A stretch of 64,000 nucleotides of DNA from Caenorhabditis remanei. Lineage: Eukaryota; Nematoda; Chromadorea; Rhabditida; Rhabditidae. A model generated the notes under the pieces. The model worked only from the letters and a program-made list of their open reading frames with translations. It ran no database searches and had not been told where the DNA came from. The stretch lies in NCBI RefSeq assembly GCF_010183535.1, contig NC_071333.1:11592587-11656586 (forward strand). Direction: 5' to 3'. Position 1 is the stretch's first letter; each line of letters opens with the position of its first letter. The position numbers were made by a program, and so were the translations under genes. Of this stretch, positions 35,301 through 64,000 are shown piece after piece.

Positions 35301-36769
35301 ATTGGAGGAACTGACATGTACGCTTCTCATCGATCTCTACAAGAATATGTTAACGAGGTTCAGAAGACTAAAGTTGATTTTTCCGTGAGTAACCAACTAT
35401 TTATTCGATTAAATATTACAACACATGTATGCTTCAGGGAGGATCTCAGTCCATCGTTTCATTGGTTCAAAAAAGTCATGACAACGACGGGTTTGCCAAG
35501 ACCAAAGGGAATTCTTATTACAAATTGGAGTCAGATGCGAAGACTTCGCTAGAAACTGAAGCAATCGAGAAGACCGAGGTATTGGAGAAGGATGAGTGTG
35601 AATGTGAAGATGATGCTCTGGAAACCACAAGTATCGCTAGTGTTCAAGTGGATGCAGACCCATTTCATATCCAACTAAACCATACAATGCATGACGATGA
35701 CCTCATCAGCTTCCTCAGTCATCATCCTATCACCAAAGAGTAAGTTTTGAGAATTTTTTTCATACAAACAATCCGCCTTATTTTCAGCGCAATGAGTCAC
35801 ACGCCAGATATAAGTGAGGATGAAATCGAGCTCATCGATAGTCCGATTGAGTTGGGTCTTGAGGCGACGTAAGGAACAAAAACAAATAATGGAAATCTAA
35901 CTAAAACATTTTGTAGTGAGAACTTGGTAATCGAGGAGGAGCATGAGGACACTAAAAGCGGTGATGAAGCATCAACACCTTCTACTGAAAGCATTCCAGA
36001 AGTTCACACAACAAAACGACCACGTTTGCTGCAAATGCTCAGTAGTGTCACTTCGAGAGAAAGTCGTGATAACTCTCAAACCGCTCCATCCACTCCATCC
36101 CAACAACCGAAGCCTCTCACACATAGTAATTCTATGAACGGATTCAATGTCCCAGTGGTAAGTGATATCGAAAATTCAACCTTGAAAAACAAGAATTCAA
36201 CATTCTTCATTCAGCACAAACGATCGTTATCGCAAAGTCTGGCGGATACAGCGGCGTCGACTGCTGCCTATGCACTCGATAACTTACAAGATTGGTTCGA
36301 GCGACCTCCAAAAGAGAAACAGAAATTGGACAGGACTATCTCAAGAAAAGATGACGGAGATATTCTTGAAGAAGTCATCGAAGAAGAGGAGCAACCATCA
36401 CACCTGCTTGAGTTAGTCTCAGCTAGCACAGTTCCAAGGGATCCGTTGATTTCACCATTGTACGCGGATAATGAAACTATCAGAGAGCTTCCGCCTTGCT
36501 ATTTCATGGTATATAGGATAATTCTTTTACATGTATTGAAAGTTGTTTTCTTTCAGGCCTGTCACATGGATCCACTTCTCGATGACACTATTTCATTTGC
36601 TGGAAAACTTCGCGACGCCGGGGGAAAAGTCATGTCAGTCGATTTACTGTCATCTGTACCACATGGTTTCCTTAACTTTACTCTCATCTCTCCTGAATGC
36701 AAAAAGAGTGGACAAGTATGCATTGGTCGTCTCAAGGAAGCACTCGGAATGAGCGATGAATCTAAATAA
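32387..36769 (+). CDS. hosl-1: Hormone-sensitive lipase
   Basis: Thirteen exons (32387-32584, 33002-33113, 33158-33230, 33887-34049, 34092-34448, 34497-34778, 34827-35114, 35160-35384, 35438-35739, 35788-35868, 35917-36157, 36215-36508, 36557-36769) give 942 aa. A 45-nt in-frame piece of exon 1 could be an intron. The family hydrolyses diacylglycerol and cholesteryl esters at lipid droplets. The N-terminal HSL domain is recognisable (GRPIGFQFSPSINKIFRIIG). The alpha/beta-hydrolase core has the oxyanion motif HGGGY (about residue 382), nucleophile GDSAGG (Ser about 456), the Asp in CHMDPLLDD (about 877) and His in VPHGF (about 908). The stretch between nucleophile and Asp is about 420 residues against roughly 280 in the human enzyme. 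The extra length is acidic and serine-rich, so phosphorylation control is plausible. All catalytic residues are intact. Confidence 0.93.
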
Positions 36770-37659: not shown

Positions 37660-39252
37660 TTAGAAGATTTGTGGCTTGTCCACCATATTCTCGATGAGCA
37701 CAGCCCACAATCCACCGGTAAGAAGGCCAACCATAAGAGTGCAAACAGAGAGTTGAGCAGCGAATCGGGAGTAGTGGGACGGAACAACACTGAAAATATA
37801 GAGATTACTTGAATAAGATAAAAAAGAAAATTTGTAACTTACTTTGGAGTGTATCCCATAGCCAATGCGCTCAGGTAACCGTGAGAGAAAGACATGAGAA
37901 TTCCAGCAACAACAAAAATGTCGGTGCTGTCGAAAAGAACTGGGTAGGCACGGGTCTCGACACGATAGTTGCAGAAGAAGAAGACCGGGATAAAGAATGC
38001 ACGAGCGACGATTGCCACGAAGAGGTATCTTGGAGTAGGCTAAAAACAGATAAATCAATCTGAGAACTGAAATCAATTATTTGTACCCAGTGAATCTTAG
38101 AGGCGACAATGGATCCGATAGTGGCGAACAAGTTGAAGACAAGGAAACTGGTCAGCAACGTGTAGATTTCGTCGTTTTCAGAGATAATCTTATCCAAGAA
38201 GCCGTACTTTCCGCGAGTGATTACGGTCATCATGACCGGAAAAATTGTAAGAGTGACAGCAAAGCAGAACCACACGTTGAACAGTTGTCCAAAGCACTGA
38301 AATGAACATAATGTTTTAAAGAAGATCTGAATTCAAATTTCTAACATTTCTGAATGTCATCCAGAGAATCGACGGTGAAGGTTTGTCAGTTTCAGCTTTC
38401 TCGCGGACTTGCATTCCCTTCTGATGATAGTAGTGGTAGAAGTCTTGTTTCGTGATGAAGTAAAGAGCAATGGCACAGACGAGAAGGATGCCCAACGAGA
38501 TACTGAAGTAGACGATTGCGACGAGTCTTGGCATATCGTTCAAAACTGAAAGAGAGCATGTTACACGAGAAATTTCCACGAGAAACGTACAATAGGTGAC
38601 TCCGATCTTAACGAATGTGATGAGAAGTCCACAGATGTTATTACCAATGAGCAACGCTCCAATGTAGGTATGTGGGAAGTCGGCGAACACTCCATAGACT
38701 GAGTTTTCATACAAGCCGTTACTGAAGTTAATCGAGGTGGCGATTCCAAGAGTGATCCAAAAGAACGGTTTCATCCATTCCAATGTCGGTTCGAGAAGAA
38801 CTACAAGAATCAAAATGACTGAGAGGTTGAAGATGTTAAAGCAAACTGGAACGAAGACACGGTAGATCAGGGGTCCGCTGAAATGAATTATCCCTCAAGA
38901 AATATTATTATAGACACTTTACTTACGCAAGGATAAGAAATAGGTTGAACACATTGATGGTGGCGTTTGGAAGTTGCGATGCAATGGTCAACGATCCCAT
39001 GAACTCCTTGGAATACCATGTCTCCTCGCCGTTCTGCTTGAACCAGTAGTTGACGTAGTACTGAAAATAGTATATTTAATGTATACATTTTTTCATTTTT
39101 CTTACCTCTGGAGATATTGTGATGAACATGTTCCACGGAAGAAGGACTCCGAATCCGACAAGAACAACGAGCCAGTAGACGATGTTAAGTTTGTCCTCTG
39201 GAGCTTTGTCCTGCTCAACAACGTAGGTGTTTGAATGACTGCTTACAGCCAT
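37660..39252 (-). CDS. Equilibrative nucleoside transporter (SLC29/ENT family)
   Basis: Seven exons (39252-39106, 39060-38927, 38877-38591, 38545-38346, 38296-38087, 38039-37843, 37789-37660) give 434 aa with consistent phases. The ATG follows a TTTCAG acceptor by only 5 nt, consistent with trans-splicing. Span 1 contains GVLLPWNMFIT, the ENT signature. About eleven hydrophobic spans follow, with the typical large extracellular loop after span 1 (YYVNYWFKQNGEETWYSKEF). A hydrophilic cytosolic loop sits mid-protein (YHQKGMQVREKAETDKPSPS). The second half has FNLFATIGSIVASKIHWP and FFIPVFFFCNYRV, as in other ENTs. The family moves nucleosides across the plasma membrane down their gradient. It is probably one of the C. 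elegans ent-1/ent-2-like genes, but I cannot choose between them. Confidence 0.9.
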
Positions 39253-42213: not shown

Positions 42214-42916
<703 letters not shown>

Positions 42917-45225
42917 TTCTGTCAAGATAGGAAAGATGAATGAAAGTGCTGCATTAGCAAAAACGAGTGACGAACGACGGGTGAGACCTTGAACTCTAAT
43001 TTTGGAGAAAGCCTTCTGACGGGCTAACCGACAAAAAGAAATGAAGAGGGAGAAGAATAGCGGAAGGAATGTTTGTTATAAGTTTTCAGAATTAAGAGTA
43101 AAAATAACTCTTTTTGAAATGAACCAGTCGAGGTCACTTTTCATTTATTCAGCTGGTGAACGTTTAGGTTAAAAACATGTGATGTTGAAAGTATAAGTTT
43201 TTAAAAAGTTATCGAAATGGACAAGAAGATACTTAATGAGATCTAGAAACACTTTGCGACAGTTTTGAGGCAGAATCAATCTTTTCCATTCTTTAATGTC
43301 ATATTGTAGATATGAAAATTAGTTATCAAAATGGAATTCAAAGTTGACACAACGTTTGAATTATAAGGTGCAAAAAACGAAAGCGGAGATTGATGAGATA
43401 AACTCCTAGGATCCTATCGGATCGCTTTTAAAATCAAACTGACAGCAGATGGGTGGAGTCGGTGGGTAGCTTTGATTGGGCGACGAAATGTGCGGCCTGG
43501 GCGACTGCCAGGGACCCCATTCTTCGCCTCGTTGCTCATCTCATTTACAATCTTCCAAACAACACTTGCGTAATAATTGCTAACTATATAAAACATGTCA
43601 CGCCTCCATTTCTCTACTCATCTTCTAACGGGCTCTTCAGCTTCTTGCGCCGGTTTATTCATTATGGAATGCTGGCGCACCAGATAATGAGATGACCCAT
43701 TGCCTTTACAACTCACAGTGTCTTATTGTTATTGGTCTAGTCACCGCATCAGTTACCATTGTTTCAAAAGTACAGAAGTATGCCGCCTACCGGAGCTTCT
43801 TTTTATTTGTTACCAGTGATGGAGAATACTAACATGAAAAAAAGGAACAATATAAAAAGATAGTCAAATAAATGCAACAGGGCTTTTTGCATATTACGAT
43901 TTAGTGGCTGAGGGAGGGGGAGGAAAAGAAGAATTCTACAGTAGACATTTTTAATAGAGGAATGATGAAGCTTTTATTATTATTTTTTATTGCAAACGGT
44001 ATGAACAATATGAAAACGGAAGAAGAAGAACAAGACCACTAGTGGGATAGGACAAAGTTTCAGATTATTGAGTCACAAAACTGAAATTTTAAAAAAGAAG
44101 GCGGGGCCAGACACCTTTTCTCACAATCATCATATGACCAATTTATGAAATTTTATTATTTTTGGCATAAGTTCAAATTATCAATGCAAATAATTGAGAA
44201 CATTATCTTGACACTGAAGGTTCATTACTCAGATGTTCAGAATTTGTTTTTTTAAATGGCCTAAATAATGTATTAATAAAAAGTATAACTTCAAGAAACG
44301 GAATTTCTAGATGTTCTATTTTTAGATATGCTATGGTCTGATAATCTTTCATGCTGAAATTAAAATTCTCATCACTCCAACGATTTCGCAAATTGCGAAC
44401 TTTGTTCATATCACTGTCTGAGGTTCTTTATTGATACGCGGAAATCAGTGTTACTTAATTCGCTTTAGATTATGAGACAATGATTTTTTATCAGCCAGTA
44501 ATCTATCAATTCACAAGACAGATGTTTCAAAATGCCAGAACAAATACGTTAAGTTTCGAGAAGAATTTGAGAGATTTCTCTATAGTTCACAGGTTGAAAA
44601 TTAAAATTAAACATTTTCGAGAAGTTAGATCAAAATGAAAAATTCAGACTGATTTGGCTGCCAGGAATATGTTCACTGAGCTTTTCCGACCATGTGATAC
44701 AATAATGGCAGGAATTTACAAACAAACAGCGTCTAATTGCGCTGTTTTCCACAGGTGGCGTGAGAAAAGTGAAAGAGAAACGAAAATATAAAAAAAAAAC
44801 TTCATGAAACTAAAATAAGTAAAATACATTTGGTATATGGAGAATACATATGATAAGTTGCGGTGAAGGGGATACAGATACGTTTTGTGAGGTGGGTCAG
44901 AGAGGACAAAAGACAGTGTTGATCAGTGGGAAAAGTTCAAGATAGGGAGAGTATTTATAAAGACCTTGGGAGGGTATAATTGAAATCATGTACATTTTTG
45001 TATTCTATACTACAAAGGTTGTTGGTCAGAGGTGACGGCGGACTGGAGTTTTTTTTGAAAAATTGAAAATGGATTCTGACGAAGGCACATTAATACACAT
45101 AAAATGAATGACTGGTGGAAGAAGGTTTGGCTTTCAACTATTAATTCTCGTGAGATTTAAACAGACATAAAAGTACATAAGACTAGCTAATCAAAGAGGG
45201 AACCGATGGGACCGTGACTGAAAAA
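42917..45225. other. Noncoding interval upstream of ceh-1
   Basis: Positions about 43440-43530 are unusually G+C-rich for the region (contain CAGATGGGTGGAGTCGGTGGG and GGGCGACTGCCAGGGACCCC) and lie about 550 bp upstream of the ceh-1 start. This is the likely promoter or enhancer. The rest, to the 3' end of the receptor gene, is AT-rich with no visible gene. Confidence 0.45.
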
Positions 45226-48163
45226 TCAGACAGGAAAGTCAGTAAGATCGCTGAAGAAGAAATCATTCTTGAAGATGTTGAATGTCTTGGACACCTGACT
45301 ATCCTCCCTCTTCCGTTCAGTGATCTCCTGTAAACATATATTATCCAAATAATTCAAGAATCGTTTCGAAAAACTCACATCAACAGCTGAAGCGATACTG
45401 CTTAGCCTTGTTATTCTACCAGCGTAGTTTGGATTATTGTTATCGTACTGCTCCGCATAATATGTATGAAGATCTTCAGCAAGCCTTAATTCCACCTTCT
45501 CAGACATGTCTCGTGTCGCATCAGTGATTCCTGGTAGATCTAGAAAGTAAATGGTTTTTCCCGTGAATCCCCGAGAGTATTAAGTATTTCTTACTTGACA
45601 CACTCCACATAATACTCATCATCATATACATTAGTTCGTATTCAGTTGGTTGCAACTTTTTGAATGGGTTGATGAAAATCAATCGGAATTTGTCCATACT
45701 TCCTTTGAGGAAACTGAAAATTTCGCAATTTGTTTGATCTCTTGAACAAGGATTAGACTCACTTCTTCACTTGCGTTGCATCCATATCACTAATATTTTC
45801 AAGCTTAACCACGGATATTCCAAAGTTGATAATCTGGCCATTCAATGTAAGTCCTCTCTCATCACTGAGATTATATCCAAGGCGTTGGCATGTTGCGAAG
45901 CACCGATCTAATTCATAGAATCTCGTCCAGAAGTGCTTGAAGATAATCCACTTTTGATCCTTTGGCAGTTGCGCGAAGACTCTTATAGACATGCAAAATC
46001 GTGCGATGTGCTCGATTTCGATGTAGTGGTTTCGCATGAAGTTTTCCATATCAAGAGGCACGTTTTCAATCATCTGAAAGAAGGATTTATCAAGAAATTT
46101 CATGTTTTTTGAAATATTCGTAGGCCATTTATTGTTTAATAGATCAAATGTTCAACGACACAACAGCGCACACCGCTCCTAATGATACCTTCCACCTGCT
46201 TATCGATTTTAGAAGGAGCTGAAAAAGGCTAAGATACCAACCACCAACAAACCTTGTCTTGGTCCGGCCATTGCTTGTTGTGTTCTCGATAAGCAAGCAA
46301 TGCTTGTTGGCACAATGTGAGCGGAATATCCGGCAACTGGCAAAATGTTTCTGGCGGCTGAAAAAAACTGATTAAATTAGAAAAACTAAGTGAAACAATA
46401 CCTGGCCGAACATGTTGTCGATGGTTGGCGTCAAAACATTTTGAACATTAACATGAAGATCTTGTGTAGCTTGTTGTGCTGCCATGGCAAACATCTGATT
46501 CTGATTTCCGGCTTCATTATTGTATTCTTGAGGCATGTTATTGTAGTGTGATGACGATGGCATCGATGTGGTATTTTGTTCGTCGCTACTCAATAGATCA
46601 GAGTACTGGTAATCAAATTGCTGTTGGGGGATGTGTTGCTGGTGCTGTTGCATGTGTTGCTGAGGAGCTGGCATAACTGCTCTACCCACCTGAAAACAAG
46701 AAAATAAAATTAGAAAAAATATTTGATTTCAATGAAATCTAAAGTGTGTCTTGAAGTTTTCAAAGTATGGTATGTGACCAATTTGATAAGAGAGTTGAAC
46801 TCATAAACCTTCTCCCTTTCCCCCCTCAACTCACAACAGAAGTCAGAGGCTGGCGCTCTGTAATAGCAAAGTATATTCGCAAGTTTCGTTTGTTGTATAC
46901 CAGAAACATTGCGTTGTAGAATGAATTCAGAATTCGTAAAGATTAGGACAGCAGATGCTTCTGGGCGTTTCGTTGAGTTACCCGAGCACTGCGCGTCTAG
47001 AAGTTGCTATGGTAATCAGAGTTCAATCGAAGCGTAAAATTATGACGCTAGTGAGGCGCCTCCTGTTTCCGTAAGATTGGACTTTATGCGAGCAAGAGCC
47101 GAATAAGAAATGAAATGGCAGATGAATAAATGATGGGGGCTGAGACTGGTGCTTCTATGTGCATTACATAAGATTTTATAAAACCGCCCAAGATATAGAG
47201 ATGATCTATGTAAGATGGCGCAGACAATCCGCAACAGATTAGTGCTCCCTTTTTCGAAACGATGCATCAATTGGATTAAATGACTCATCTCAACTTTGGT
47301 CAATGCTTTGAACTATTGACAGACATCATTATGATCTCGAGCGCAAATATCAAACCAGAACTCAAAGAAACCACAAACCTCTTCAATAACAGTTCTGTGA
47401 AATGAAAAGTTGGGTTGATGCAAATCTCCATTTGGTTGGTAGGCTTCCGAAGAAACTTCTTGTACAAAGGTGCCGTTGCCCATAAGTAGCGGCGGAGGGT
47501 CCGGATTTTGAATCTGTTTGTCAAAACTCGGCGGCCGATATGTAAATGACTCGAGGGAGGAGTGCGGAGAAGAGTGTTCAATGCTATCAGTCTCATTGCC
47601 AGATGAATCCTTTTCCGCTTCTGATTTATTTTGCACCACTGAAACAGGGGATGTGAGATCTGCAATTGTGTGGGAATTGGATTTGGGGGATAGGAAGCAT
47701 GCTGTGGTGGTTTGGTGAACCCGAGTTATTACTCGAGTACCTACTCATGCTATTTTTAGGTTACAAATGTTGTCAAGAGTATTAGGGTCAAAGAACTTAA
47801 GTGAACACTTACTGTCTTTTCGCATCCCCACTCGCACACATTTTTCATATCGACAACATCTGCAGGAATATCTTTTGTCTGAAAATGAAAATAATAATTT
47901 GAATCGTCATCATTTCCGGTGTCATATTTCAAATATTTGATCGGTCATCTCAAACCTAGACGATTGCGAAATAGACCGATGCCAAACTCAAACAGAAATT
48001 GAAATTAACACTTACTAAACGATACTTCACATTTCCGATCGAACCTGCATTTGTACCTAAGATTCATTGTAAGGGTCCTCCGAAAAAATGCAGCACATGC
48101 CCTACAACATCGTATCCCAAAATGTTGTCCGTGTGCATCGGTTTCACACACCAAGCACGACAT
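45226..48163 (-). CDS. Nuclear hormone receptor with Q-rich linker (supplementary nematode type)
   Basis: Exons: 48163-48016, 47878-47813, 47638-47379, 46689-46402, 46357-46253, a short exon within about 46218-46150, 46073-45763, 45713-45595, 45539-45379 and 45327-45226; about 530 aa. The DNA-binding domain starts at residue 3. First zinc finger cysteines are C3, C6, C20 and C23, followed by the P-box region CRACAAFFRR. The second finger (KCRFDRKC, then YSCRCCRYEKC) ends at GMRKD. The linker is polar, then glutamine-rich (QQHMQQHQQHIPQQQ). The ligand-binding domain region carries NHYIEIEHIARFCMSIRVFAQLP and KDQKWIIFKHFWTRFYELDR, typical of the HNF4-derived nematode expansion. Two introns use GTTTGT donors. 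The join around 46150-46253 is unresolved because the apparent intron is only 34 nt. Which nhr number it is cannot be told. Confidence 0.8.
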
Positions 48164-53150: not shown

Positions 53151-54206
53151 GCAACAAGATTTTACCAGAAATCAAAAAGGATAACATCATCTTTTCGAAA
53201 AACGTGCAAAAAACATGCTGTACTTTCTGTTTCCGGAAATGTAAATGTTCGGCGACTAGGGGACAATCGAACATGTACAATTTCCGAGAACACAAATCAA
53301 CAGGTAAAGTTTTAATTCATTTAGGACAATCAATATCATTTTCAAAACTAAAAAAAGAGTGCGGGACGGGCTCCTCAATAGGTTACTATGGCGAATTCAT
53401 GCAAGGGCTCGCATTAATGCACTGACCGAATCAACTAATGTGGGGTCTTGCTTCTCTATCTAACCGTGAGATAAAAATGAGACTAGGACTGAGAGAAAAA
53501 AAAGTTGTGTTGTATTCCCACAGCGAATGTGATAAATTTTGTGATTTATGCTCGCCGGATTTATGCCCCATGATTAATCTGGTGGTAATGATGAGATCCT
53601 AAATTCGGTAAGCAGAAGTCAACTCAGAATACACAGCAGATTTTAGAAAAACAGAGTTTTGACAAAGAAACGAAATGTGTCCTGACGACAAGAATCAATA
53701 TCATAAGAGCTTGCTTCTGATTTTCAGGACAAATTCATACAAAGAAATCCATGACGAGATCAGAAGAAGATAGAAGCTCGTAGTGTATTTATTTTTTTGA
53801 AAACGTGTATTTTTTTATTGAAAATTAGTTCTTCTCAACAAAACTGTCGGGAGGTCAACATAAGATTTTGTCTGGTAAATGTTCTGTAAATATGATTTGA
53901 TGAAGAACGTTCACACTTCCTGCAAAGATGTAACTCAAATTTGTACTGCTTGGTAGAATGTTACTCGTGTCTCATCGTTACTGCATAAAAAATTCAATTC
54001 AAAAAACTAACTTTAGAATGGAAGTAATATTTTTATTTGATTTTTTCCGAGCAAAGACATTATAAATGCATATCATCTCACCTCGGCTGAAGAGAGAGTT
54101 TCAAGTTTCTCCTAATTAACTCAAATAGTCTTTCAGTGTGTTGAGCTGTTTTTAATTTTGTTTATTGTTTTATTTTGTAGTAATATAGGCTTTGCCACGC
54201 ATTTCA

Positions 54207-54250
54207 GTCTTCAAATTAATTCTGTTGGACAACCAGCAAAATTGGAAGAC
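54207..54250. repeat. Short isolated hairpin left of the array
   Basis: GTCTTCAAATT and AATTGGAAGAC, with TGTTGG/CCAGCA inside, can pair around a four-base loop. It is shorter than the hairpins of the adjacent array and lacks their flanking words, so it is not counted as a member. Confidence 0.35.
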
Positions 54251-54507
54251 TCCTGCTCAGCAGAAGACTCCTTGAAGGCAAGAAAAAGATTTCCGGATGA
54301 CTGAGCTCCAAGATCACCTCCGTTTTTTAGATAAATCTTGTGCATCCACATCTTCATTTACAATGTTTCTTTTATTGAATATGACATAACCTGGAACAAT
54401 GTTACTTTATTTTAACTATAAATAATTCGCGTGGTGTTCTCATTTCACACAACAAACCACATACTTCAACTCAAAGTTCTGATATTATTGTGTAGTATTG
54501 AAATCTG

Positions 54508-54597
54508 GTTGTAATATATGTTAACATCAACCAACAAGTCTTCAACGTTTCCTACTGAGTGTTGTGGTACCTGTGGGTGACGTTAACATAAAACAAC
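54508..54597 (-). ncRNA. microRNA-like hairpin, array copy 1
   Basis: The 90-nt sequence folds end to end. On the plus strand GTTGTAATATATGTTAACAT pairs with ATGTTAAC-type sequence and AAACAAC at the other end. The middle (ATCAACCAACAAG against the CCTGTGGGTGAC side) pairs with a few mismatches. TCTTCAACGTT pairs imperfectly with AGTGTTGTGG near a loop of about 10 nt. The basal GTTAAC differs from other copies on both arms, so pairing is kept. The strand is inferred from motifs beside sister copies. Confidence 0.55.
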
Positions 54598-55108
54598 TTT
54601 TAGGGATAATCATTATAGACCGAATAGGGATGCTGAGATTTTCAAACAACTGTTCATTGAAAGAATAAACAACTTCTTTCTATTCCGCTCGGTAGTCATA
54701 GGCAATTCTCATATATACGTTTTAATCCAAGATTGAGATCCAATCCTTGCTTTTTGTTTTAATACTAACAAGGAAGACGTGTCTAACCGAATTATAAAAA
54801 TGAACTTTTCTCTTTTCCGATTGAAGAAATGCGGATCTAAAGATTATCATGAATGTAAATCAGGAAACATTATTGAAAGATATCTGCTTTTATTAAAAGT
54901 CATGGGCTTGTGTTAACATATATTGGTACAACTTTGTAGACCAGTGTCATTCATTTCTCAAAATGAACATGTATAAAAACTAAGCTTGTGAACGAAGAGC
55001 ATCTTTAACACTTCATAACGCGTAGTTAAACAATATAACATAGTCTCTGTCTCTGAAATATACTGGATTTACCTTTTGAATTGACTCTTTTCTCAAAGAA
55101 AATATAAT

Positions 55109-55198
55109 GTTGTAACATCTGTTTACAGGACCCAACAGTCCTTCTACACTTCTTAATGAGAGTGGAAAGCCCTGTGGGTTCTGTGAACATATGACAAC
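55109..55198 (-). ncRNA. microRNA-like hairpin, array copy 2
   Basis: 90 nt, from GTTGTAACATCTG to CATATGACAAC. The variable middle (ACAGGACCCAACAG on one arm, CTGTGGGTTCTGTG on the other) pairs well. The apical part (CCTTCTACACT against AGAGTGGAAAG) is the family pattern with its own changes. Close relative of copy 4 in the middle stem. No full CTCCGCCC octamer was found beside it. Confidence 0.55.
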
Positions 55199-55449
55199 AA
55201 ATGGGCGAATAAGAGAGTAGTATAGTTCTCGTTCATTATGAAATAAAAATGATGATAAATGAAAAAATTTGCATCGCTCTCCTCTATTTCCTGCTGTTGT
55301 CAGGGGTAACGTTGTACAATCCTATCTGGGAAAGGAAGACGTAGAGCAAGCGATATGTATCTCTGAAGATAATGCGTTTTAGTGAAATGGTTAACAATCT
55401 ATAACTACACTTTAAAAAAAGTTACCGTCTTTTTCAAAACAAAATGTGT

Positions 55450-55539
55450 GTTGTAGTATTTGTTGTCATCAATCTACAAGTTCCCAGCGTTTCCATTGAA
55501 ACGCTGTGAAACCTGGTAGTGATGTCAACACATAACAAC
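55450..55539 (-). ncRNA. microRNA-like hairpin, array copy 3
   Basis: 90 nt, GTTGTAGTATTTG to CACATAACAAC. Base GTTG-CATCA pairs with TGATGTCAAC, a different base composition from other copies with pairing kept. The apical stem is the strongest in the array: CAGCGTTT against AAACGCTG, eight pairs. GGGCGGAG lies 185 bp to its right (55724-55731). Confidence 0.6.
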
Positions 55540-55723
55540 GTTCATGAATAGTAGTTGTATAGCAACGAATATGAGTATCAGTCAGCTTTGAGTGAGAAAA
55601 AGTGTGTGGCTCGCTGAAGCAAAGATGACTTTTGTATTCCGTTGTGCTTCTGAACACAATATTCACGCCCACAATATAATCCGTACTCATGACTGAACCT
55701 CGTGTTTTTTGCCAATTGCATTA

Positions 55724-55731
55724 GGGCGGAG
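55724..55731 (-). promoter_or_regulatory. CTCCGCCC octamer beside copy 3
   Basis: GGGCGGAG on plus, so CTCCGCCC on the minus strand, 185 bp upstream of copy 3 if that hairpin is transcribed leftwards. This octamer was reported as a motif upstream of nematode microRNA genes (Ohler et al. 2004, from memory). Confidence 0.45.
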
Positions 55732-56163
55732 CCAAATAGAAGAAATGTGGATGGTGCCTACATGAATTTCAGCCCGGAAATTTTACTGAAAAATAAGACA
55801 AAAAAAATTCACATTTTTTTACAGATTGCAAGATGATTAATCACTGAACCTCTGTTCCGCATAAGTCCATGCGCAACAGCTGCAAAGTATCTTCGAACTG
55901 AGATTACTGCAGTCAAAAATGTTTAATCGTATAGTAGACGGAGTTATGGCTTGGCAAAGTTTGCTGGTTTCAGAGCATAATGCAGCACTCCCTTTTTCAC
56001 ATAGTTTGCCAATCTATGAATATATTCCTAGCGAGATTTATCTGACTCTGTTTGGGGATATAGAATCCACAGAGTATAAGTGGTCAATATTAGTACCATT
56101 TATTAACGTCATTGAGTTTGTTTGCAAGAAAAACTTACCTAATAAACATAAAAAAACAAAGTT

Positions 56164-56253
56164 GTTGTAATATCTGTTCCCAGGACCCATCAGTCTTTCA
56201 ACGCTTCTCAATGAGTGTGGAAAGCCCTGTGGGAACTGTGAACATATAACAAC
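56164..56253 (-). ncRNA. microRNA-like hairpin, array copy 4
   Basis: 90 nt, GTTGTAATATCTG to CATATAACAAC. GTTC near the base pairs with GAAC; the middle CCCATCAG pairs with CTGTGGG; the apical CTTTCAACGCT faces AGTGTGGAAAG. A degenerate CTCCTCT word is present about 90 bp to the right, in sequence that resembles the flank of copy 5. Confidence 0.55.
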
Positions 56254-56851
56254 AGTAAAATAGCAGTATAGAAATATAATATAGCTTTTATGATGTTTCA
56301 ACATGTTTATTGGGTTACGTGGGAGCATAATTCGTGCTCACTCCTCTACTCTCATTTGGAGTGGTTGCCACGGGATACATTGGAAGGCCGTCCTCGTATT
56401 GCTCTCATCGACTGACAAAGCTCCACCGCTTCTACAAGGGAAATGAGAATAAGGAAGTTATATAGATTTTGGAGTACAAAGATCAAATACATGTCTTTGA
56501 CAAAATATGTAGAAGACAAGAAATGGGATGACATGACGGTGGCTGAAATGACGTGCTCACAATGTTGTTTTCTGAGATAGATCGAAATAAAAAGCTTATG
56601 TTTCTTTAAATTCTTTCTTTTTCCATGATTGATAAACGCCTACGGACTTCATGTCGGAGCTAAAACAAAACAGGCTGTTGTGATAGTTTTCTGAAACCAC
56701 GAACCAACACATTTGTCAAGAAAGGAACACGGTACATTTGTAGCTAAATATCTTAACATCCCAAAATTGTGATGAAATGATTCTGGGTAAAAATGAAGGT
56801 GACACGACAGTTGAACACAACGAAATTGAGTATTATCGAGTGTACACCGTA

Positions 56852-56945
56852 CTACTGTAATACTTGTTCACAGTACTCTTCAGTCTTTCAACGTTTTTCA
56901 GTGAGCGTTCAAAGCCCTGAGAAAACTGTGAACATAGAACAGTAG
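56852..56945 (-). ncRNA. microRNA-like hairpin, array copy 5
   Basis: Same architecture, but the outermost stem has changed on both sides. CTACTGT on the left is matched by ACAGTAG on the right, where other copies have GTTGTA and ACAAC. TGTTCACAGT pairs with ACTGTGAACA. The apical part CTTTCAACGTT faces AGCGTTCAAAG with almost perfect pairing. The two-sided change is direct evidence that the fold is selected. Confidence 0.65.
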
Positions 56946-57834
56946 AGATATAGCAGAACCAAATAAGGAGCATAACTCGTTCAGTTTCAAATAAATATGA
57001 ATGTGTAGGGAGTTGACGGAAGTCGGCACAATCTCTCACTCCCTCTTTTCGTCTGGTTGTCATGGGAAAACCACAAAAAGGTCAACTGAAGTACTCGAAT
57101 ATTGAACCTCAATTTCGGAGACAAGAAGGAATGTAGTATTAGTTTCGACTCATCATAAGCCTAATATCACACTTTCGATAAATATTTCATTTGTTCACTA
57201 TGTCTTTGGTTAGAATAAAGACCTCTACACACAGCATTATACTAACTCATTCATTATTCTAAATTTTGGTAGTCACTACAACAAATAGTACTCACTCAGA
57301 AGACACGACATCTGGTAGTTTAGAACATGTATTGAGCAGAATGTATTTCGTATATTAGTTTGAGAAAACTGAACAAAAAGCATTTTTGATCAAAAGAGCT
57401 CAGCGCGTGTTGTAAGGGAATGTAGCATTGATCTTTGTTGTCTTTGATGTTTTCATTAAAATATAGCTCAATTTGTGTCAATCCTGCAACTAGAGCCATT
57501 TTTCCATCATTAGTCGTATGTACTTGAAAATGGATTCTGATGCATACGGTTTTTGTTTCATTTTACATAAGAAGAAATGCGAGATAATGCGGTAAGAAAG
57601 ATGCGATCATAAATTGGATTGCCACGGAATCGTTTTGAAACCCAACGATTGATTTCAGAGTGCTTGGATGGGGTAGTATTTTTTCAAACCGGGAGAAAGT
57701 TCTACGAGTACCTGGATAAAATTATTCGAATCCGCTGAATCAGAAACCTGGAATATTAGTTATACAATCTCTTTCCTTCATTTAACCTGAACATGAAACC
57801 TTTACTTTAACTTACATCAATACTGATTAAGTTT

Positions 57835-57924
57835 GTTGTAGTATCTATGAACGGAACTCTACAGGTCCTCAACGCTACGTCTTGAGTGTTGAGAAAACTG
57901 CGAGTGCCGTTCACAAATAACAAC
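57835..57924 (-). ncRNA. microRNA-like hairpin, array copy 6
   Basis: 90 nt, GTTGTAGTATCTATGAACGG to CCGTTCACAAATAACAAC. The middle ACTC pairs with GAGT; the apical CCTCAACGCT faces AGTGTTGAG. On the minus strand the right-hand arm comes first. Nearly identical to copies 7 and 8 in the hairpin and the following 100-300 bp. Confidence 0.65.
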
Positions 57925-58033
57925 GTGGAACAGTTAGAACTGATAGGAGAATAATGCGAGAAGTAGATGAAGTAAATAGGAGTTGCCTTCATGTTAGAAT
58001 CAGTTTTCCGTCTCGGTTGGCTAAATGTTTTAG

Positions 58034-58041
58034 CTCCGCCT
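58034..58041. promoter_or_regulatory. CTCCGCCT octamer beside copy 6
   Basis: One base off CTCCGCCC, 110 bp right of copy 6, in sequence shared with copies 7 and 8 (AGCTCCGCC). Orientation is opposite to the motif beside copies 3 and 9. Confidence 0.4.
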
Positions 58042-58619
58042 TCTGCTTGTAGTATGTTTATCATGTGCACGCTTCGAAATCTCTTATGACTGGATTTGGA
58101 TTTTTAATCTCTCGGAAAGGGTTTTCAAAAACAATTCATTCTGAAAAAAGTGATGAAGGGCTAAAAAAGATCATTTCATGATAGGAGAATCTGGATGACT
58201 TGAGGAAATATCAAACGACATTTTGGATTGCTATGTTTTGCAAGCTCATAGTGAACAAAGGATTAAAATCAATGAAAATCATTCTCTCCCACATCGAAAC
58301 TTGTGTAATTGTGAGAAGTGTGAAACTATTACAACGGCTCTTAATTGCAATTGTTTTTGAGAAGAAAACTAATGTGTGTGTGTGTATCGAGAATCTGCTG
58401 GATTGAATTGTTTCAACTCCAACAATTTTTCTCAATTCTGTTGGAAATGTGGGCCTGTTCCGTGGTATTACTTCAATCGGTTTTTTGTTTTGTCGTACCT
58501 GAAAACCTAGAGACGTATGATGTCTATTTTCTCGATCAGAAAACCAAATTTCATCGAGACACCGTCACTCAAAGCTACCCCATGACAAATCCTTTTCAAG
58601 AACACTACTAATTAAGTTT

Positions 58620-58709
58620 GTTGTAGTATCTATGAACGGAACTCTACAGGTCCTCAACGCTACGTTTTGAGTGTTGAGAAACCTGCGAGTGCCGTTCACA
58701 TATAACAAT
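58620..58709 (-). ncRNA. microRNA-like hairpin, array copy 7
   Basis: 90 nt, GTTGTAGTATCTATGAACGG to CCGTTCACATATAACAA. Long imperfect stem: GAACGG/CCGTTC, ACTC/GAGT, CAGG/CCTG and CTCAACGCT/AGTGTTGAG around a loop of about ten bases. Unpaired positions are single or double mismatches, as in animal microRNA precursors. Confidence 0.65.
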
Positions 58710-58818
58710 GTGGAATAGTTAGATTTGATTGGAGAATAAGGCGAGAATGGAATGAAGAGAGTACATTTCGTTTTGTGGTTTGAATAAAATTTGCTTCTCG
58801 CATGAAAAAACTCGTTTG

Positions 58819-58826
58819 CTCCGCCC
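58819..58826. promoter_or_regulatory. CTCCGCCC octamer beside copy 7
   Basis: Exact CTCCGCCC, 110 bp right of copy 7. The surrounding sequence has otherwise diverged from copies 6 and 8, so survival of the octamer is notable. Confidence 0.5.
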
Positions 58827-60167
58827 ATTCTCTAGATAAGGCTTGAGCTTTTCGTACACACGCCTTGTTTTCGAAACTTCTAATCAAACGAGCTGGACTT
58901 TTAATCTCAACGAGGAGGTTTGGGATAAATGAAAACACACTTCTGTAGGCTGTATCTCTATTGATAAAAAATAGCGGTGGCGGATAAAGCTGTATAGACA
59001 ACATTGAATGAGAAGACACTGAGTGACACATTCAAGAGAGGAACATGTAGATCTGCAACGCGTCTCTCTATAAACTGAAGTTCAGGTTAATTGTGATGCA
59101 TTCATGTTGAATTCAAATTAAATAGACCAAATATATCATTTTGTGTCATTGTATATTTACAAATCAATCTCAGAAATTTATATTATATTCTGTGAACGGG
59201 AAAAGTATGAAACGATTTGAGAGCATAGAGGAAGAACGTATGTACGGATCAAAAAATTGAAACAAAGTTTCAGTAGATGATGAATAGGAGTAAATATGTA
59301 AGTGTCTCCAACATTATTCAACCACGTTTTTAGTTCACCGTGACCGCACAACCTTGTTCCCTGAATTGAGTCACCCAATGTAAGAATTGGTAATCAAAAA
59401 CACCCGAGAAAGTTTTGAACAGATTGGTCAACTTTCACCAAAGATATCAAGCATTCAGGAATTCAAATAATTTGCCCAGCCCTGGTCGTTGAGTAATACT
59501 CAAAACTTTGAACAGTTTTTGTTCTTGTGAAAAAAACCACATGTTCATCAACAAAAACGTATTTGCCACAGGCTGGGTGATGCCCAAAAAGCTTTATCAA
59601 GGCAAGCCAAAATTCATCAAGTCAGAGGCGTTTTACTTTTTTCAGTAATAAGTGTTCAGACAAAAACATTTCAGATTAAAGTGTTTCGATAATTCCGTGG
59701 TCCATCTTTTTTTTAAAGTGAACTACTGAATCTTGTAGATTTTTCTCTTTCTATCCACTGTGACTGGACCTCAACAGGTACTGAACACTTCTTTCCAAAT
59801 ATGAGTTCTTTCTATCAGTGTGCTTTGCATCGCTTTCCTTGTTTTTGATTATGTTATTTTGACTCTTTACCCATAGAGCGATAGCGGTCTGGAAACATTC
59901 CTTGAATATGTTTATATAGACAATCTTCTTCTGTAAATCAATTGTTCCGTGGTGTGTGATGCCATGTTGGCGATAATGTAGATAATTTCTTGTCAGCTCT
60001 CTTTTTTACATGAAATTTATCGATGTCAATTGAGCTGTCACATCTTTTTATCAGGCTCTTGTTCAATTATGTTTCACATCTAGAATAACTCGTTATTTCA
60101 GAGCACGGTTTGCTCTCAAAAACCTACCAGTTTAATAGTTTTATTGGTAACGTTTCAAATCAAGTTC

Positions 60168-60257
60168 GTTGTAGTATCTATGAACGGAACTCGACAGGTC
60201 CTCAACGCTACGTCTTGAGTGTTGAGAAACCTGCAAGTGCCGTTCACATATAACAAC
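60168..60257 (-). ncRNA. microRNA-like hairpin, array copy 8
   Basis: 90 nt, GTTGTAGTATCTATGAACGG to CCGTTCACATATAACAAC. It differs from copy 7 at a few sites, including ACTCGACAGG on one arm and CCTGCAAGTG on the other. It shares about 290 bp with copy 6, including the downstream flank. Confidence 0.65.
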
Positions 60258-60366
60258 GTGGAATAGTCAGAGCTGATAGGAGAATAAGGCGAGAAGTAGA
60301 TGATGTGAATAGAAGTGGCTTTGATGTTAGAATGTCTTTTCCTTCTCGGTCGACTGAATATTTTAG

Positions 60367-60374
60367 CTCCGCCC
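60367..60374. promoter_or_regulatory. CTCCGCCC octamer beside copy 8
   Basis: Exact CTCCGCCC, 110 bp right of copy 8, same spacing and orientation as beside copies 6 and 7. Confidence 0.5.
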
Positions 60375-60926
60375 TCTGCTTGGAGTATGTCTATCATGTG
60401 CACTTTTCAAAATTTATAATCTCGCGCGTCGGATTTTTAATCTCTTTTCGAAGGATATACGAAAACAAAAATATGACGATTGCGCTAGAGCCGGGTGGCT
60501 TGTTTGGATTTGAAAAAATAATAACTTGAGGAAATATCGGAGGAAAGAGTTGAGAACTGGAAAAAAATACTTTGTGAATGATATTGCCTTTTCTTGCATT
60601 TTCCGGTTAAAAGAAGTATGACATTTGCTTCAGTTCTTGAAATTGCATAGGTGGAAAACAAGAATTTGGAAAGCTGAAAAAGTAGTGAACAACGACATTT
60701 TCATGACATTTCCTCTTCTTACACTTCTTCATCAAATTACAATCGCTGTAAACTCGGGAGGTGTAAAAATTTCACACCGGTAGCTGGTTTCAATCATCCC
60801 TGAAAATCAAACTGATGCGCGATATTTCAGCGTACATATCTTGATCACATTGCCTAGTTACCTCAGAAATTCATTATTTAGAAAACTTACCGGTGACTTG
60901 TACATGTTTACGAAAAATTAATATTT

Positions 60927-61016
60927 GTTGTAGTATCTGTGTACACCGTTGAACAGGTCCTCAACGCTTCGCAATGAGTGCTGAGGAACTGAACAACATT
61001 GTACACATATAACAAC
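60927..61016 (-). ncRNA. microRNA-like hairpin, array copy 9
   Basis: 90 nt, GTTGTAGTATCTGTGTACA to TGTACACATATAACAAC. The base TGTACA replaces GAACGG of copies 6-8 on both arms. The variable middle GTTGAACAG pairs with CTGAACAAC. The apical TCCTCAACGCT faces AGTGCTGAGGA. This combines a changed middle with kept base and apex. Confidence 0.65.
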
Positions 61017-62504
61017 AGCTGGCATTATTAGCCCTGAATATAGACAAGTGTCTAGAAATAAAACGTTGTGTTTTGTGGGAATGAGCGCGTATTTCATCCG
61101 AGTTGCCTATGGAGATGCCCACATAAGCATATGAGCAAGAAACGAATGCTTTCTCGTCTCATCGGAAAAGGGGCGGAGTGAATAAAGTGAAACCGAGGAA
61201 GATATTAATTTTTCGATGGCGACGAGCAGGAATACAAAAATACAGATCAAGCCGACAAGGACATTCTGGGGATTAATGGAAAGCGTATCTCACAAAACTG
61301 AACGTGAAGCATCAAATAGTTCTGTTTCTATTTTGGTTCCATACAGCACAGTTTATTTCGTTGAAACATGCTGTAGAATATGGCAATTTCGCAAATGTGA
61401 TTAAAACCCAATACATGTTCGAATATTTAAAAAGTTCGATGAGAATGGTGCGTGGGATGTGAGGAAAAAACGTAGTCATTGAACTACGTCACGTCACAGC
61501 TTCTGCGTTTGCATAATGTAATGTGAGTAGTGCTACTAACGAGCAATTTTTCATATTACTTCTAACAAATTCTGCGTAGGAGGAAGCTTTCAAAATTCAG
61601 AAATGACGAAAAGACTTGCATCTTCTTTCAAGGGGGTTTTGAAAAGAAAAGTGAGAAAGGAGGAATAAGTGAGTGTTTTATTTTTCTTTTCGTGGCACAT
61701 GAAATTTTATGAGAAATACAATGAATCATGAGAATAATAGCAGAAGAAAATAACTCAATCGTTACACAATATTCTATCAAATCTTTATCAGTTAAGATAC
61801 TATTCATAACAATGGCTGATACCATTCAAAACATGACTCACAAATTGCTTAGTGCTTTGAGAAAGATGGGATGTCAAACAAAATAAGTAGAGAGGAAGAA
61901 AACATAATCGTGAGGAAGAAAATAGAACAAACGACAAGGGAACCTAGAGAGAGGATACGATGCAGATTAACAACCGGATTTTTTATGGCGCGCAGGAAGA
62001 AAACGATGTGAAATTTTTTGAATTGATTTCTCATCTTTGATTTGACTTCTTCCTCATCAGACTATTGATATATAAATTACAAATATATTCAATAGTTCTT
62101 TCAAAAGTTTTCCTGTTGGTTTTCGGTTAGACACAAAAAAGGTGAGTATGAAAAACCGATGTATGAACGTGGTTTTTTTTTGCATTTATAGTTTTGTTTT
62201 GTTTTCGAAAAGAGGCATACTTTCTTTGTTTCTTTTTGTTTCCGATTGTTTATCATACTAAAATATACAATGAAAAGCAAGGTTGCACCCGCTCCCTTCA
62301 TAACAAACACAAGATGGCCTAGAATTTCTGCGTCCCTTTCCGCTTTTTACGGACACTCAACGCCCTGACTCACTAGGGATATGTGTTTACACAATTGATT
62401 TCGACCTGACCGCTATTTAGAAATAGAGTTCAGTTTCAAACATCAAATGTTTATATTTTCAATCAAACTGTTACACAATTTACTCCACGTGCTTTCATTT
62501 CAGG
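61017..62504. other. Noncoding interval right of the hairpin array
   Basis: Contains the octamer at 61171 and a short ACGTCACGTCAC repeat near 61487. Otherwise AT-rich with no convincing ORF. The right end is the 5' flank of the MFSD12-like gene. Confidence 0.5.
61171..61178 (-). promoter_or_regulatory. CTCCGCCC octamer beside copy 9
   Basis: GGGCGGAG on plus (CTCCGCCC on minus), 155 bp right of copy 9, same orientation as beside copy 3. Confidence 0.5.
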
Positions 62505-64000
62505 ATGAATGAAGAAGAACCGGAAGGAGACGTTATTCAAGTACGTCCATGTGAGGAAGTAAGTTTATTTTAAATGGTAAAATATCAAACGCATATTTCA
62601 CAACATTTTTCAGTTGGTAGTTCCCAGAAGAAATGTTCGCCCAGATCATGACATTAGTTTCTATAGGAAAATTGCATATGGTTCGTTTTGCAACTAATTA
62701 TTTTTTAGAATAATTTCAAATTTTCAGGAGTTGGACATTTTTACAATGATTTGTGTGCAAGTATGTGGTTTACATACCTGATGATATATATGGAGAAAGT
62801 TTTGAAATTACAAAGTAGTCGAGCCGGAATGTTAATGCTTATTGGACAGGTAAACAATCTATTTTTTTCGAGAAAAAACCAAAATTGTAATTATCTTTAG
62901 GTGACTGATGCAATTTCCACTCCACTTGTAGGAATATTCAGTGATTCAAGTATACTACCCTCGTGGTTTGATAAAATTGGAAGGAGGATATCATGGCATC
63001 TAATCGGTACCATATTGGTATCAATATCGTTTCCCATGATTTTCAATAGATGCTTCCTATGTAAAAGTGATACGTCAGAATGGTACGAAGTACTGTGGTT
63101 TGTACCATTTATTATGGTTTTTCAGTTTGGATGGGCCTCTGTACAAGTAAGTTACCGTACTAGACATGAAAAACGGAAAAAAATTTTTTTTCTAGATTTC
63201 TCATCTGGCCCTTATTCCTGAATTATCTTCTGTACCCTCCAGCAGAGCCACTATGAATTCATTGAGGTAGTAAATTTTCCTTTTATGTATTTCTATTTAA
63301 GTTTACAGGTATGCATTCACTGTGATAGCAAATCTCTCGGTATTTTTTGCACTCGCCTGGTTATTATCAGAATCTACAGGTCACTCAACTATTGGACCGT
63401 GGGATTTGAGTCATTTTAGGGTAAGCTAGAATTTTTGAACTTTTGAAAATAATCTTAATTGACTTAAGATCGCAGGATGGTTGGTAGTGATTCTTGGTAT
63501 CACCGTGTCATTTGTGTTTTACGCTTTCACCAGAGAACCAACAAACCAGCGAAGGATAAGGTTAGCTTATTGCCAATAGAATACTTATTATTAATCAAAA
63601 ATTTGATTACAGTAGACTCAATTCATTTTCCTCGGATGCAAGTGAGCTTGCCCGTATGCATTGGACAAGTTGGTTTGGCCACATTCAATTCTATCAGGTA
63701 AACCAATTTTCAATTAAAGTTGTAATTTGATATCTAATGATTTTCAGATTGCTCTGCTCTATATGCTATCTCGTTTGTATATAAACATATCACAAGTCTA
63801 TTTCCCATTTTATATCACTATGACACAGAATTACGAAAAAGTGAGTGTGAAATAAAGGGGGACCAACGAAAAATCTATTTTTATAGACCTACGTTGCAAT
63901 CCTACCAATGGTATCATATTTATCTTCATTCTCTGTTTCAATGATCAACAGTACACCTTTAGTTAGCAAACTATCCAAAAAGGTAATACTATAATCTAAA
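62505..64000 (+). CDS. MFSD12-like major facilitator transporter, 5' part
   Basis: Exons: 62505-62558, 62614-62680, 62728-62849, 62901-63146, 63196-63266, 63309-63420, 63469-63560, 63613-63697, 63748-63840 and 63887-63981; the gene continues past the window. The ATG is one base behind a TTTCAG acceptor, consistent with trans-splicing. An acidic N-terminus leads to [20 protein letters not shown], then [16 protein letters not shown], the modified motif A of the MFSD12/GPH-like group, then [24 protein letters not shown]. Human MFSD12 is a lysosomal/melanosomal protein needed for cysteine import. The acceptor at 63469 (TTAAG) is weak but the phase requires it. The next donor (GTAATA) is present at 63982. 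No broken residues were seen. Confidence 0.82.

Follow-up and report, generated by a model that had tools for sequence, protein, structure and literature searches.

Hairpin array at the locus

The DNA analysed here, called the window in the following, is a stretch of 64,000 nucleotides (nt) from the nematode Caenorhabditis remanei, corresponding to bases 11592587-11656586 of contig NC_071333.1 (C6; 21,501,900 bases), which is presumably the X chromosome; the genome searched for relatives comprises 130,466,896 bases in 186 contigs. The window contains an array of ten hairpins (h0-h9), very probably microRNA-type precursors of the mir-2229 family, with X-box-like sites upstream and 5' splice-site-like sequences downstream of part of the units. 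Three related units lie elsewhere on the contig, h10 at 11.41 megabases (Mb) and h11 and h12 at 5.74 Mb, giving 13 units in total. An earlier reading made from the sequence alone (the sequence-only reading) had described nine hairpins of 90 nt at 54508-61016, all in a single orientation and without further copies in the window. All nine (h1-h9) are found at these places, but a tenth, h0, exists on the minus strand, separated from them by 1.2 kilobases (kb).

The matches listed below refer to the Rfam model of mir-2229 (RF03827; gathering score 65 bits), to a covariance model built from h1-h9 (R1), which was run on 270,103 bases, some overlapping, consisting of the window, 200 kb of contig left of it and two short loci, and to a profile of both basal-stem sides, trained on h1-h11 and scanned over 275,800 partly overlapping bases on both strands.

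53217-53301, minus: h0, tenth and most diverged hairpin, basal stem like that of the others, guide arms unlike; R1 29.7 bits at 53213-53308, basal-stem profile 27.8, fold of -29.2 kcal/mol with flanks
54508-54597, minus: h1, hairpin by fold; R1 86.9 bits (in the R1 training set), no RF03827 match at an expectation value (E) <=1
55109-55198, minus: h2, mir-2229 hairpin; RF03827 65.6 bits at 55123-55184
55450-55539, minus: h3, hairpin; R1 84.9 bits (in the R1 training set), no RF03827 match at E<=1
56164-56253, minus: h4, mir-2229 hairpin and top match to the family model; RF03827 91.1 bits at 56178-56239
56854-56943, minus: h5, mir-2229 hairpin; RF03827 83.6 bits at 56868-56929
57835-57924, minus: h6, hairpin within the 287-nt repeat D1 common to h6, h7 and h8; RF03827 36.1 bits, below gathering, E 5e-5
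58620-58709, minus: h7, hairpin in a D1 repeat; RF03827 38.2 bits, below gathering
60168-60257, minus: h8, hairpin in a D1 repeat; RF03827 38.3 bits, below gathering
60927-61016, minus: h9, hairpin; RF03827 23.9 bits, E 0.16; R1 92.7 bits (in the R1 training set)

A covariance model of the nine copies, proposed as a check by the sequence-only reading, thus recovers h0 and a distant copy, which are the only R1 matches at E<=5 besides the nine hairpins and their antisense matches. The basal-stem profile, to which h0 was unseen, scores the next non-member place at 19.3.

On the minus strand, h1-h9 each fold into a single stem of 31-35 pairs whose loop measures about 4-12 nt, with energies of -30.1 to -40.6 kcal/mol. 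By comparison, 2000 random 90-mers of the window have a mean of -13.9 (standard deviation 5.2), and 1.2% of them reach -27. Strong hairpins as such are not rare: a scan on a 10-nt grid, which h0 and h1 escaped, records 24 places in the window with at least 30 pairs and at most -27 kcal/mol, eight in the array and 16 elsewhere. Pairwise identities among h1-h9 range from 53 to 87%, apart from h6, h7 and h8 with 96%, and an ungapped alignment of the nine yields a 35-pair stem. Standard pairs occupy 91.7% of its pair cells (82.6% after shuffling; none of 500 shuffles as high), and changes on both sides that keep the pair occur at 16 of the 35 pairs, amounting to 31 such cells versus 10.5 in shuffles (again 0 of 500 as high). 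The number of further pair types is as high in 103 of 500 shuffles. The covariation signal is lost if the partner is slid by 1-3 columns, a control that is partly biased by the derivation of the structure from the same nine sequences, and the shuffles keep column composition, not relatedness. Both arms therefore lie in one stem conserved by compensatory change, as in a microRNA gene, and the divergence in sequence with a retained fold that had been claimed for the array is borne out.

Affiliation to the mir-2229 family

The sequence-only reading had hinted that no known microRNA matches. This fails, since the mir-2229 model fits three of the ten array members, h4, h5 and h2, above its gathering score, all on the minus strand, as it does the 11.41-Mb copy. 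In a search of 54001-62000 at E<=1, h8, h7 and h6 follow below gathering with E 1e-5 to 5e-5. These six minus-strand matches (36.1-91.1 bits) agree in strand and register and cover model positions 1-62; antisense matches are confined to three hairpins and are weak (<=26.6 bits). The only other Rfam families recorded in this search are mir-764 (E 0.98, plus) and GEBRO RNA (E 0.3, plus, outside the hairpins). The gathering score is not reached by h0, h1, h3 and h6-h9, of which h0 is without any Rfam match at the gathering threshold, the only threshold applied to it; the putative membership of these units rests on their homology to h2, h4 and h5, as judged from the alignment, R1 and the basal-stem profile. 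The microRNA-like nature proposed earlier is backed by the family match together with the stem covariation, and we have little doubt that the hairpins are precursors of the microRNA type belonging to mir-2229. Note that the likeness to RF03827 concerns sequence and fold of the 62-nt precursor, whereas the model extends neither to the basal stem nor to the promoter site or the layout of the array.

Relatives elsewhere on the contig

In a genome-wide RF03827 search, in which 65 of 24,791 first-look candidates were scored and which missed h9, eight matches are listed, all of them on C6 and six in the window; seven reach at least 36 bits, on one contig and one strand. The unit h10 (C6:11409853-11409913, minus; locus L014, 4839-4927) attains 81 bits and lies about 236 kb from h0 on the same strand. 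Another match at C6:16818037 (22.3 bits), for which R1 gives a partial match of 13 bits, is taken as chance, because four prokaryote control genomes likewise give matches below the cut-off.

The unit h11 (C6:5740473, plus; locus L038, 273-360, plus) was found by a search with basal-stem patterns and scores 51.7 bits with R1, and h12 (locus L045, 91-179, plus), located 0.6 kb beyond h11, scores 33.7 bits with R1 and 41.2 with the basal-stem profile, which was not trained on it. Both keep the basal stem of the array and have a different upper stem, and h11 is without an Rfam match at E<=1. The sequence ATAAGGCAC is common to the 3p arms of the two, and both arms contain TAAGGCAC. The latter, like the UAAGGCAC in these arms, is the start of miR-124, which we take as a lead only; in C. 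elegans, miR-124 is a microRNA of sensory neurons. A short tandem repeat with a unit of about 20 nt (gacgggggttttaagaata and variants) was seen by eye at about 1555-1680 of L045.

The first pattern search gave 27 places versus 32 for a reversed-pattern control, seven of them members (h1, h2, h4, h8, h9, h10 and h11); a second gave 17 (control 13), again including seven members, and a third a single place, h11. Four of the 20 non-member places of the first search, C3:10488587, C3:8286663, C6:11447701 and C6:5168710, do not match R1, and the three of them that were folded (L039, L040 and L041) form no comparable hairpin. DNA searches with h9, h11 and h3 as queries returned only self-matches. The family has 13 or more members, and its restriction to C6 holds within the reach of the best RF03827 candidates, the patterns and the DNA queries.

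X-box-like sites upstream of the hairpins

The conserved flanking motifs mentioned by the sequence-only reading are confirmed on both sides, as an X-box-like site upstream and a splice-site-like sequence downstream. The upstream motif fits the X-box consensus of RFX transcription factors, RYYNYY N1-3 RRNRAC, as given in PMC2375033. In the window, the following sites score at least 7 of 10 in a count at fixed positions.

53382-53395, minus: X-box-like site of h0, TTCGCC AT AGTAAC, 7/10, weak; fixed-position count
54692-54706, minus: X-box-like site of h1, ATTGCC TAT GACTAC, 7/10, weak; fixed-position count, fly matrix and motif search
55296-55310, minus: X-box-like site of h2, GTTACC CCT GACAAC, 9/10; fixed-position count, fly matrix and motif search
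56364-56378, minus: X-box-like site of h4, GTATCC CGT GGCAAC, 9/10; fixed-position count, fly matrix and motif search
57056-57069, minus: X-box-like site of h5, TTTCCC AT GACAAC, 8/10; fixed-position count, fly matrix and motif search
61102-61116, minus: X-box-like site of h9, ATCTCC ATA GGCAAC, 8/10; fixed-position count and fly matrix, also found by the 24-nt motif, not by the best 15-nt motif

Over all 13 units the scores are 10 for h10, 9 for h2, h4 and h11, 8 for h5, h9 and h12, 7 for h0 and h1, 6 for h3, h6 and h7, and 5 for h8. A sequence match close to the presumed gene start is hence clear (8-10) in seven units, weak in two and absent (5-6) in four. The sum of 98 is reached by none of 300,000 random draws; single random stretches attain 7 in 37%, 8 in 6.6% and 9 in 0.5% of cases. 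In the nine units with at least 7, the site starts 94-155 nt upstream, at about 94-126 nt within the array and at up to 155 nt in the relatives. The degenerate consensus is matched completely at the site of four of the 13 units (h2, h9, h10 and h11).

A motif search without preset motif, conducted on ten units (h7 and h8 were left out, and h0 was not yet known), returned TTCCCATGnCAACnA as best motif with a score of 65.4, compared to 41.6-50.9 in 15 random sets, and placed it at the X-box in seven of the ten. With a width of 24 the score is 91.4 (62.8-77.1 in random sets), and eight of the ten units have the motif at this place, the exceptions being h3 and h6. A test for the RFX half-sites in 11 units gives a z value of 7.2, which is attained neither by any of 300 random palindromes of equal shape nor by any of the 29 other letter orders, while the downstream side (10 units) stays at background level. 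Finally, a matrix was made from 24 X-boxes selected from Table 2 of PMC2375033 with omission of poorer entries, these sites being from fly. It yields p 1.7e-4 with 12 units and 2e-5 with 10. Individual p values are 0.003 for h10, 0.009 for h2, 0.011 for h4, 0.05-0.08 for h1, h5, h9 and h11, 0.26 for h12 and 0.57-0.93 for h3, h6, h7 and h8. The downstream side gives p 0.065 with h3 counted, and the stretch downstream of h3 overlaps the h2 site. Among the X-box tests, the motif search and the fly matrix are the more independent ones.

By eye, GGCGGAGC is seen upstream of h6, h7 and h8 (at about 58033, 58818 and 60366, minus), at about the distance of the X-box in other units, with comparable sequences close to h3 (about 55725) and h9 (about 61172).

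The sites found here resemble those of the known RFX/DAF-19 target genes (PMC2375033 and PMC1794439) in matching the consensus completely or nearly so. Many fly X-boxes are located about 60-150 nt from the ATG, and the sites found here likewise about 100-150 nt upstream. The targets described there are protein genes for cilia, and in PMC1794439 they comprise genes with an X-box from ciliated neurons of three Caenorhabditis species; the units studied here would instead encode microRNAs.

Splice-site-like sequences downstream of the hairpins

The consensus of 5' splice sites is AGGTAAGTTT. Counting agreement with this consensus downstream of the array hairpins gives the following places with at least 7 of 10.

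55065-55074, minus: 5' splice-site-like sequence downstream of h2, 7/10
55418-55427, minus: 5' splice-site-like sequence downstream of h3, 8/10
56131-56140, minus: 5' splice-site-like sequence downstream of h4, AGGTAAGTTT, 10/10
57808-57817, minus: 5' splice-site-like sequence downstream of h6, 8/10
58571-58580, minus: 5' splice-site-like sequence downstream of h7, 7/10
60120-60129, minus: 5' splice-site-like sequence downstream of h8, 8/10
60883-60892, minus: 5' splice-site-like sequence downstream of h9, CGGTAAGTTT, 9/10

With h10, which also scores 8/10, eight of the 13 units reach at least 7 at 18-40 nt downstream, a score found in 13% of random stretches. The sum within 10-60 nt is 88 versus 56.5 expected and is reached in none of 100,000 draws, and the other three combinations of strand and side are at background. 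The sequence lends moderate support to the proposal that the units give rise to spliced transcripts of RNA polymerase II and are read from the minus strand.

Orientation of the units

Since the hairpins are nearly self-complementary and fold on the plus and minus strands alike, as a check on both strands confirmed, folding does not reveal the transcribed strand. The energy is better on the minus strand (or the homologous sense) in seven of 12 units and on the other strand in five, and G-U versus A-C cells number 18 versus 7 on the minus strand with its structure and 19 versus 10 on the plus strand with its own. The Rfam match, the upstream site and the downstream splice-site-like sequence, taken together, point to the minus strand.

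Conserved stem and changing guides

The 62-nt precursor of Rfam spans columns 15-76 of the 90-column alignment, so that the basal stem extends 14 nt beyond it at either end. In a comparison of h1-h6 and h9 (h7 and h8 were omitted as near copies, and h0 is not in the set), the two basal stems are 77% and 81% identical and the loop 63%, whereas the guide arms range from 54 to 62%, with 55-57% in the 5p arm, 62% in the first 8 nt of the 3p arm and 54% in its rest. This suggests that the processing stem is kept while the guides diverge. With product ends predicted from Rfam's 62-nt precursor, nt 2-8 of the 22-nt 3p product, the putative seed, would exist in five forms among the nine hairpins (one shared by h6-h9, another by h4 and h5), and that of the 5p product in seven. 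It is common for well-studied microRNA clusters to be made as one transcript, or to preserve the mature sequence and let the remainder drift. The array seems to reverse this pattern, in that the promoter site and the stem facing Drosha are kept and the guides change.

Neighbouring genes

A transporter gene (Pfam MFS_2, reading frame 62901-63221; window 62505-64000, plus) appears to start about 1.5 kb from h9 and heads away from the array. The remaining neighbours are ordinary:

45226-45579, minus: reading frame with a nuclear hormone receptor ligand domain
42728-43075, minus: reading frame with part of a homeodomain, below the cut-off
38316-38894, minus: reading frame of a nucleoside transporter
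34821-35552, plus: reading frame of an alpha/beta hydrolase

Interpretation and alternatives

We consider it probable that the array represents ten tandemly duplicated mir-2229 microRNA genes on the minus strand which operate as separate RFX-driven units. The hairpins might instead derive from one long polycistronic primary transcript, the upstream blocks being remnants of tandem duplication. Such a transcript would suit the one-way array, the 287-nt segments common to h6-h8 and the four of the ten array units that have no recognisable X-box, and clustered microRNAs may indeed be polycistronic (PMC4255771). It appears rather unlikely to us, because the upstream motif is the top-scoring block amid diverged flanks, recurs with the relatives at 11.41 Mb (10/10) and 5.74 Mb (9 and 8) and lies 94-155 nt upstream wherever it is present, and because splice-site-like sequences follow individual hairpins. 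Separate units with their own promoters are also known from the C. elegans mir-1829 family, where individual upstream promoter boxes direct RNA polymerase III and the precursors are processed independently of Microprocessor (PMC12157501). Transcription of this kind would agree with the runs of at least four T within 40 nt downstream in eight of 13 units, with 34% expected per unit. It is nevertheless very improbable for the array, as box A and box B are not enriched upstream of the precursors (p 0.46 and 0.99, 13 units) and as the long basal stem contrasts with the short hairpins lacking a basal stem that are enriched among Microprocessor-independent microRNAs, mir-1829 included, according to the same source.

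The proposal that the elements are decayed or non-functional microRNA relics with an inherited fold finds some footing in the distance of h0, h1, h3 and h9 from the family model and in the four degenerate upstream sites, yet units with mostly 53-71% identity show paired changes in the two arms, which are unexpected without selection on the fold, and we regard the relic proposal as improbable. Hardly credible is a miniature inverted-repeat transposon that folds into hairpins by chance. The ends do form short inverted repeats (GTTGT...ACAAC), and there are several diverged copies, but target duplications are lacking (the longest flanking repeats average 2.9 nt in 10 units, compared to 3.1 at random places), the genome-wide search revealed no spread of mir-2229-like copies to other contigs, albeit as an incomplete test of dispersal in view of the 65 candidates scored, and the stem covariation and the conserved motif outside the repeat ends likewise speak against it. 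The rejection of a dispersed transposon in the sequence-only reading is thereby upheld.

Several observations weigh against our preferred reading of separate RFX-driven mir-2229 genes. The X-box is clear in only seven of the 13 units, the level of h0 and h1 is common in random stretches, h3, h6, h7 and h8 have no recognisable site, and just three of 12 units individually reach p 0.02 with the fly matrix. Moreover, the upstream block was first spotted by eye in an alignment of the flanks, and both the RFX half-site tests and the splice-site test were chosen after inspection of the sequences; since the units are paralogues, shared elements partly reflect common descent. On the downstream side, five of the 13 units (h0, h1, h5, h11 and h12) score only 5 or 6, and a motif search without preset motif returned a similar motif as best, which did not exceed the null (32.1; up to 34.4 in 20 random sets). 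The folding energy favours the opposite strand in h2, h4, h5, h10 and h12. As to the family, h1 and h3 go unmatched by RF03827 at E<=1 and h9 matches with an E of 0.16 only.

The family itself has already been catalogued as mir-2229; the upstream X-box, the downstream splice site and the contrast in conservation between stem and guides appear to be new. In the literature searched, which did not include the main C. remanei microRNA papers, mir-2229 is named in no paper and the architecture of X-box and splice site was not found described. As far as the listed entries show, none of the papers there that mention C. remanei microRNAs deals with the array cluster; searches of the same literature for DAF-19 and X-box with microRNA in Caenorhabditis gave only a review on RFX1 in cancer, those for splice sites with primary microRNA transcripts (pri-miRNA) no paper, and one for X-linked clusters in C. 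remanei PMC4255771 and one further paper. The studies of de Wit 2009 and Shi 2013 are probably the sources of the C. remanei microRNAs. The paper on microRNA variation in C. remanei (PMC4255771) names mir-2227 and mir-2230 and describes the mir-64 cluster, which resembles the array in consisting of fast-evolving tandem paralogues, seven in C. remanei and eight in C. latens. As judged from this description rather than from sequence, the mir-64 cluster differs in being named as another family and in the absence of an X-box from the accessible account.

Proposed mode of action and biological meaning

If the array indeed consists of separate RFX-driven genes, the typical unit would comprise an X-box, a short leader and the 90-nt hairpin, in many cases followed by a 5' splice site. 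In cells with active RFX, RNA polymerase II would produce a short, probably spliced primary transcript per unit, and Drosha would crop it about 14 nt from the base of its stem, at the two ends of the 62-nt Rfam precursor. Dicer would then remove the loop, and one arm would be loaded into Argonaute and guide it to its target messenger RNAs. Duplication and paired arm changes would have generated several different guides on a processing stem that stayed nearly fixed. The units without X-box (h3 and h6-h8) may be silent, use another site or rely on a neighbour. The RFX factor DAF-19 activates genes in the ciliated sensory neurons of C. elegans, so that these neurons would be the expected cell type.

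More tentatively, all units may together form a family of 13 or more microRNA mini-genes that is confined to one chromosome, each descended from a cassette of X-box, hairpin exon and 5' splice site and dedicated to ciliated sensory neurons, with the stem nearly frozen and the guides swapped by compensatory change, and with h11 and h12 carrying UAAGGCAC in the 3p arm; we regard this broader view as possible, though short of probable. If true, the mini-gene family would constitute a lineage-specific, fast-evolving layer of sensory-neuron regulation. Provided that the X-box is used, a fast-evolving microRNA family would be tied to a single named transcription factor and a single class of cells, and the array would offer a case for following how new guides arise while the expression programme stays fixed.

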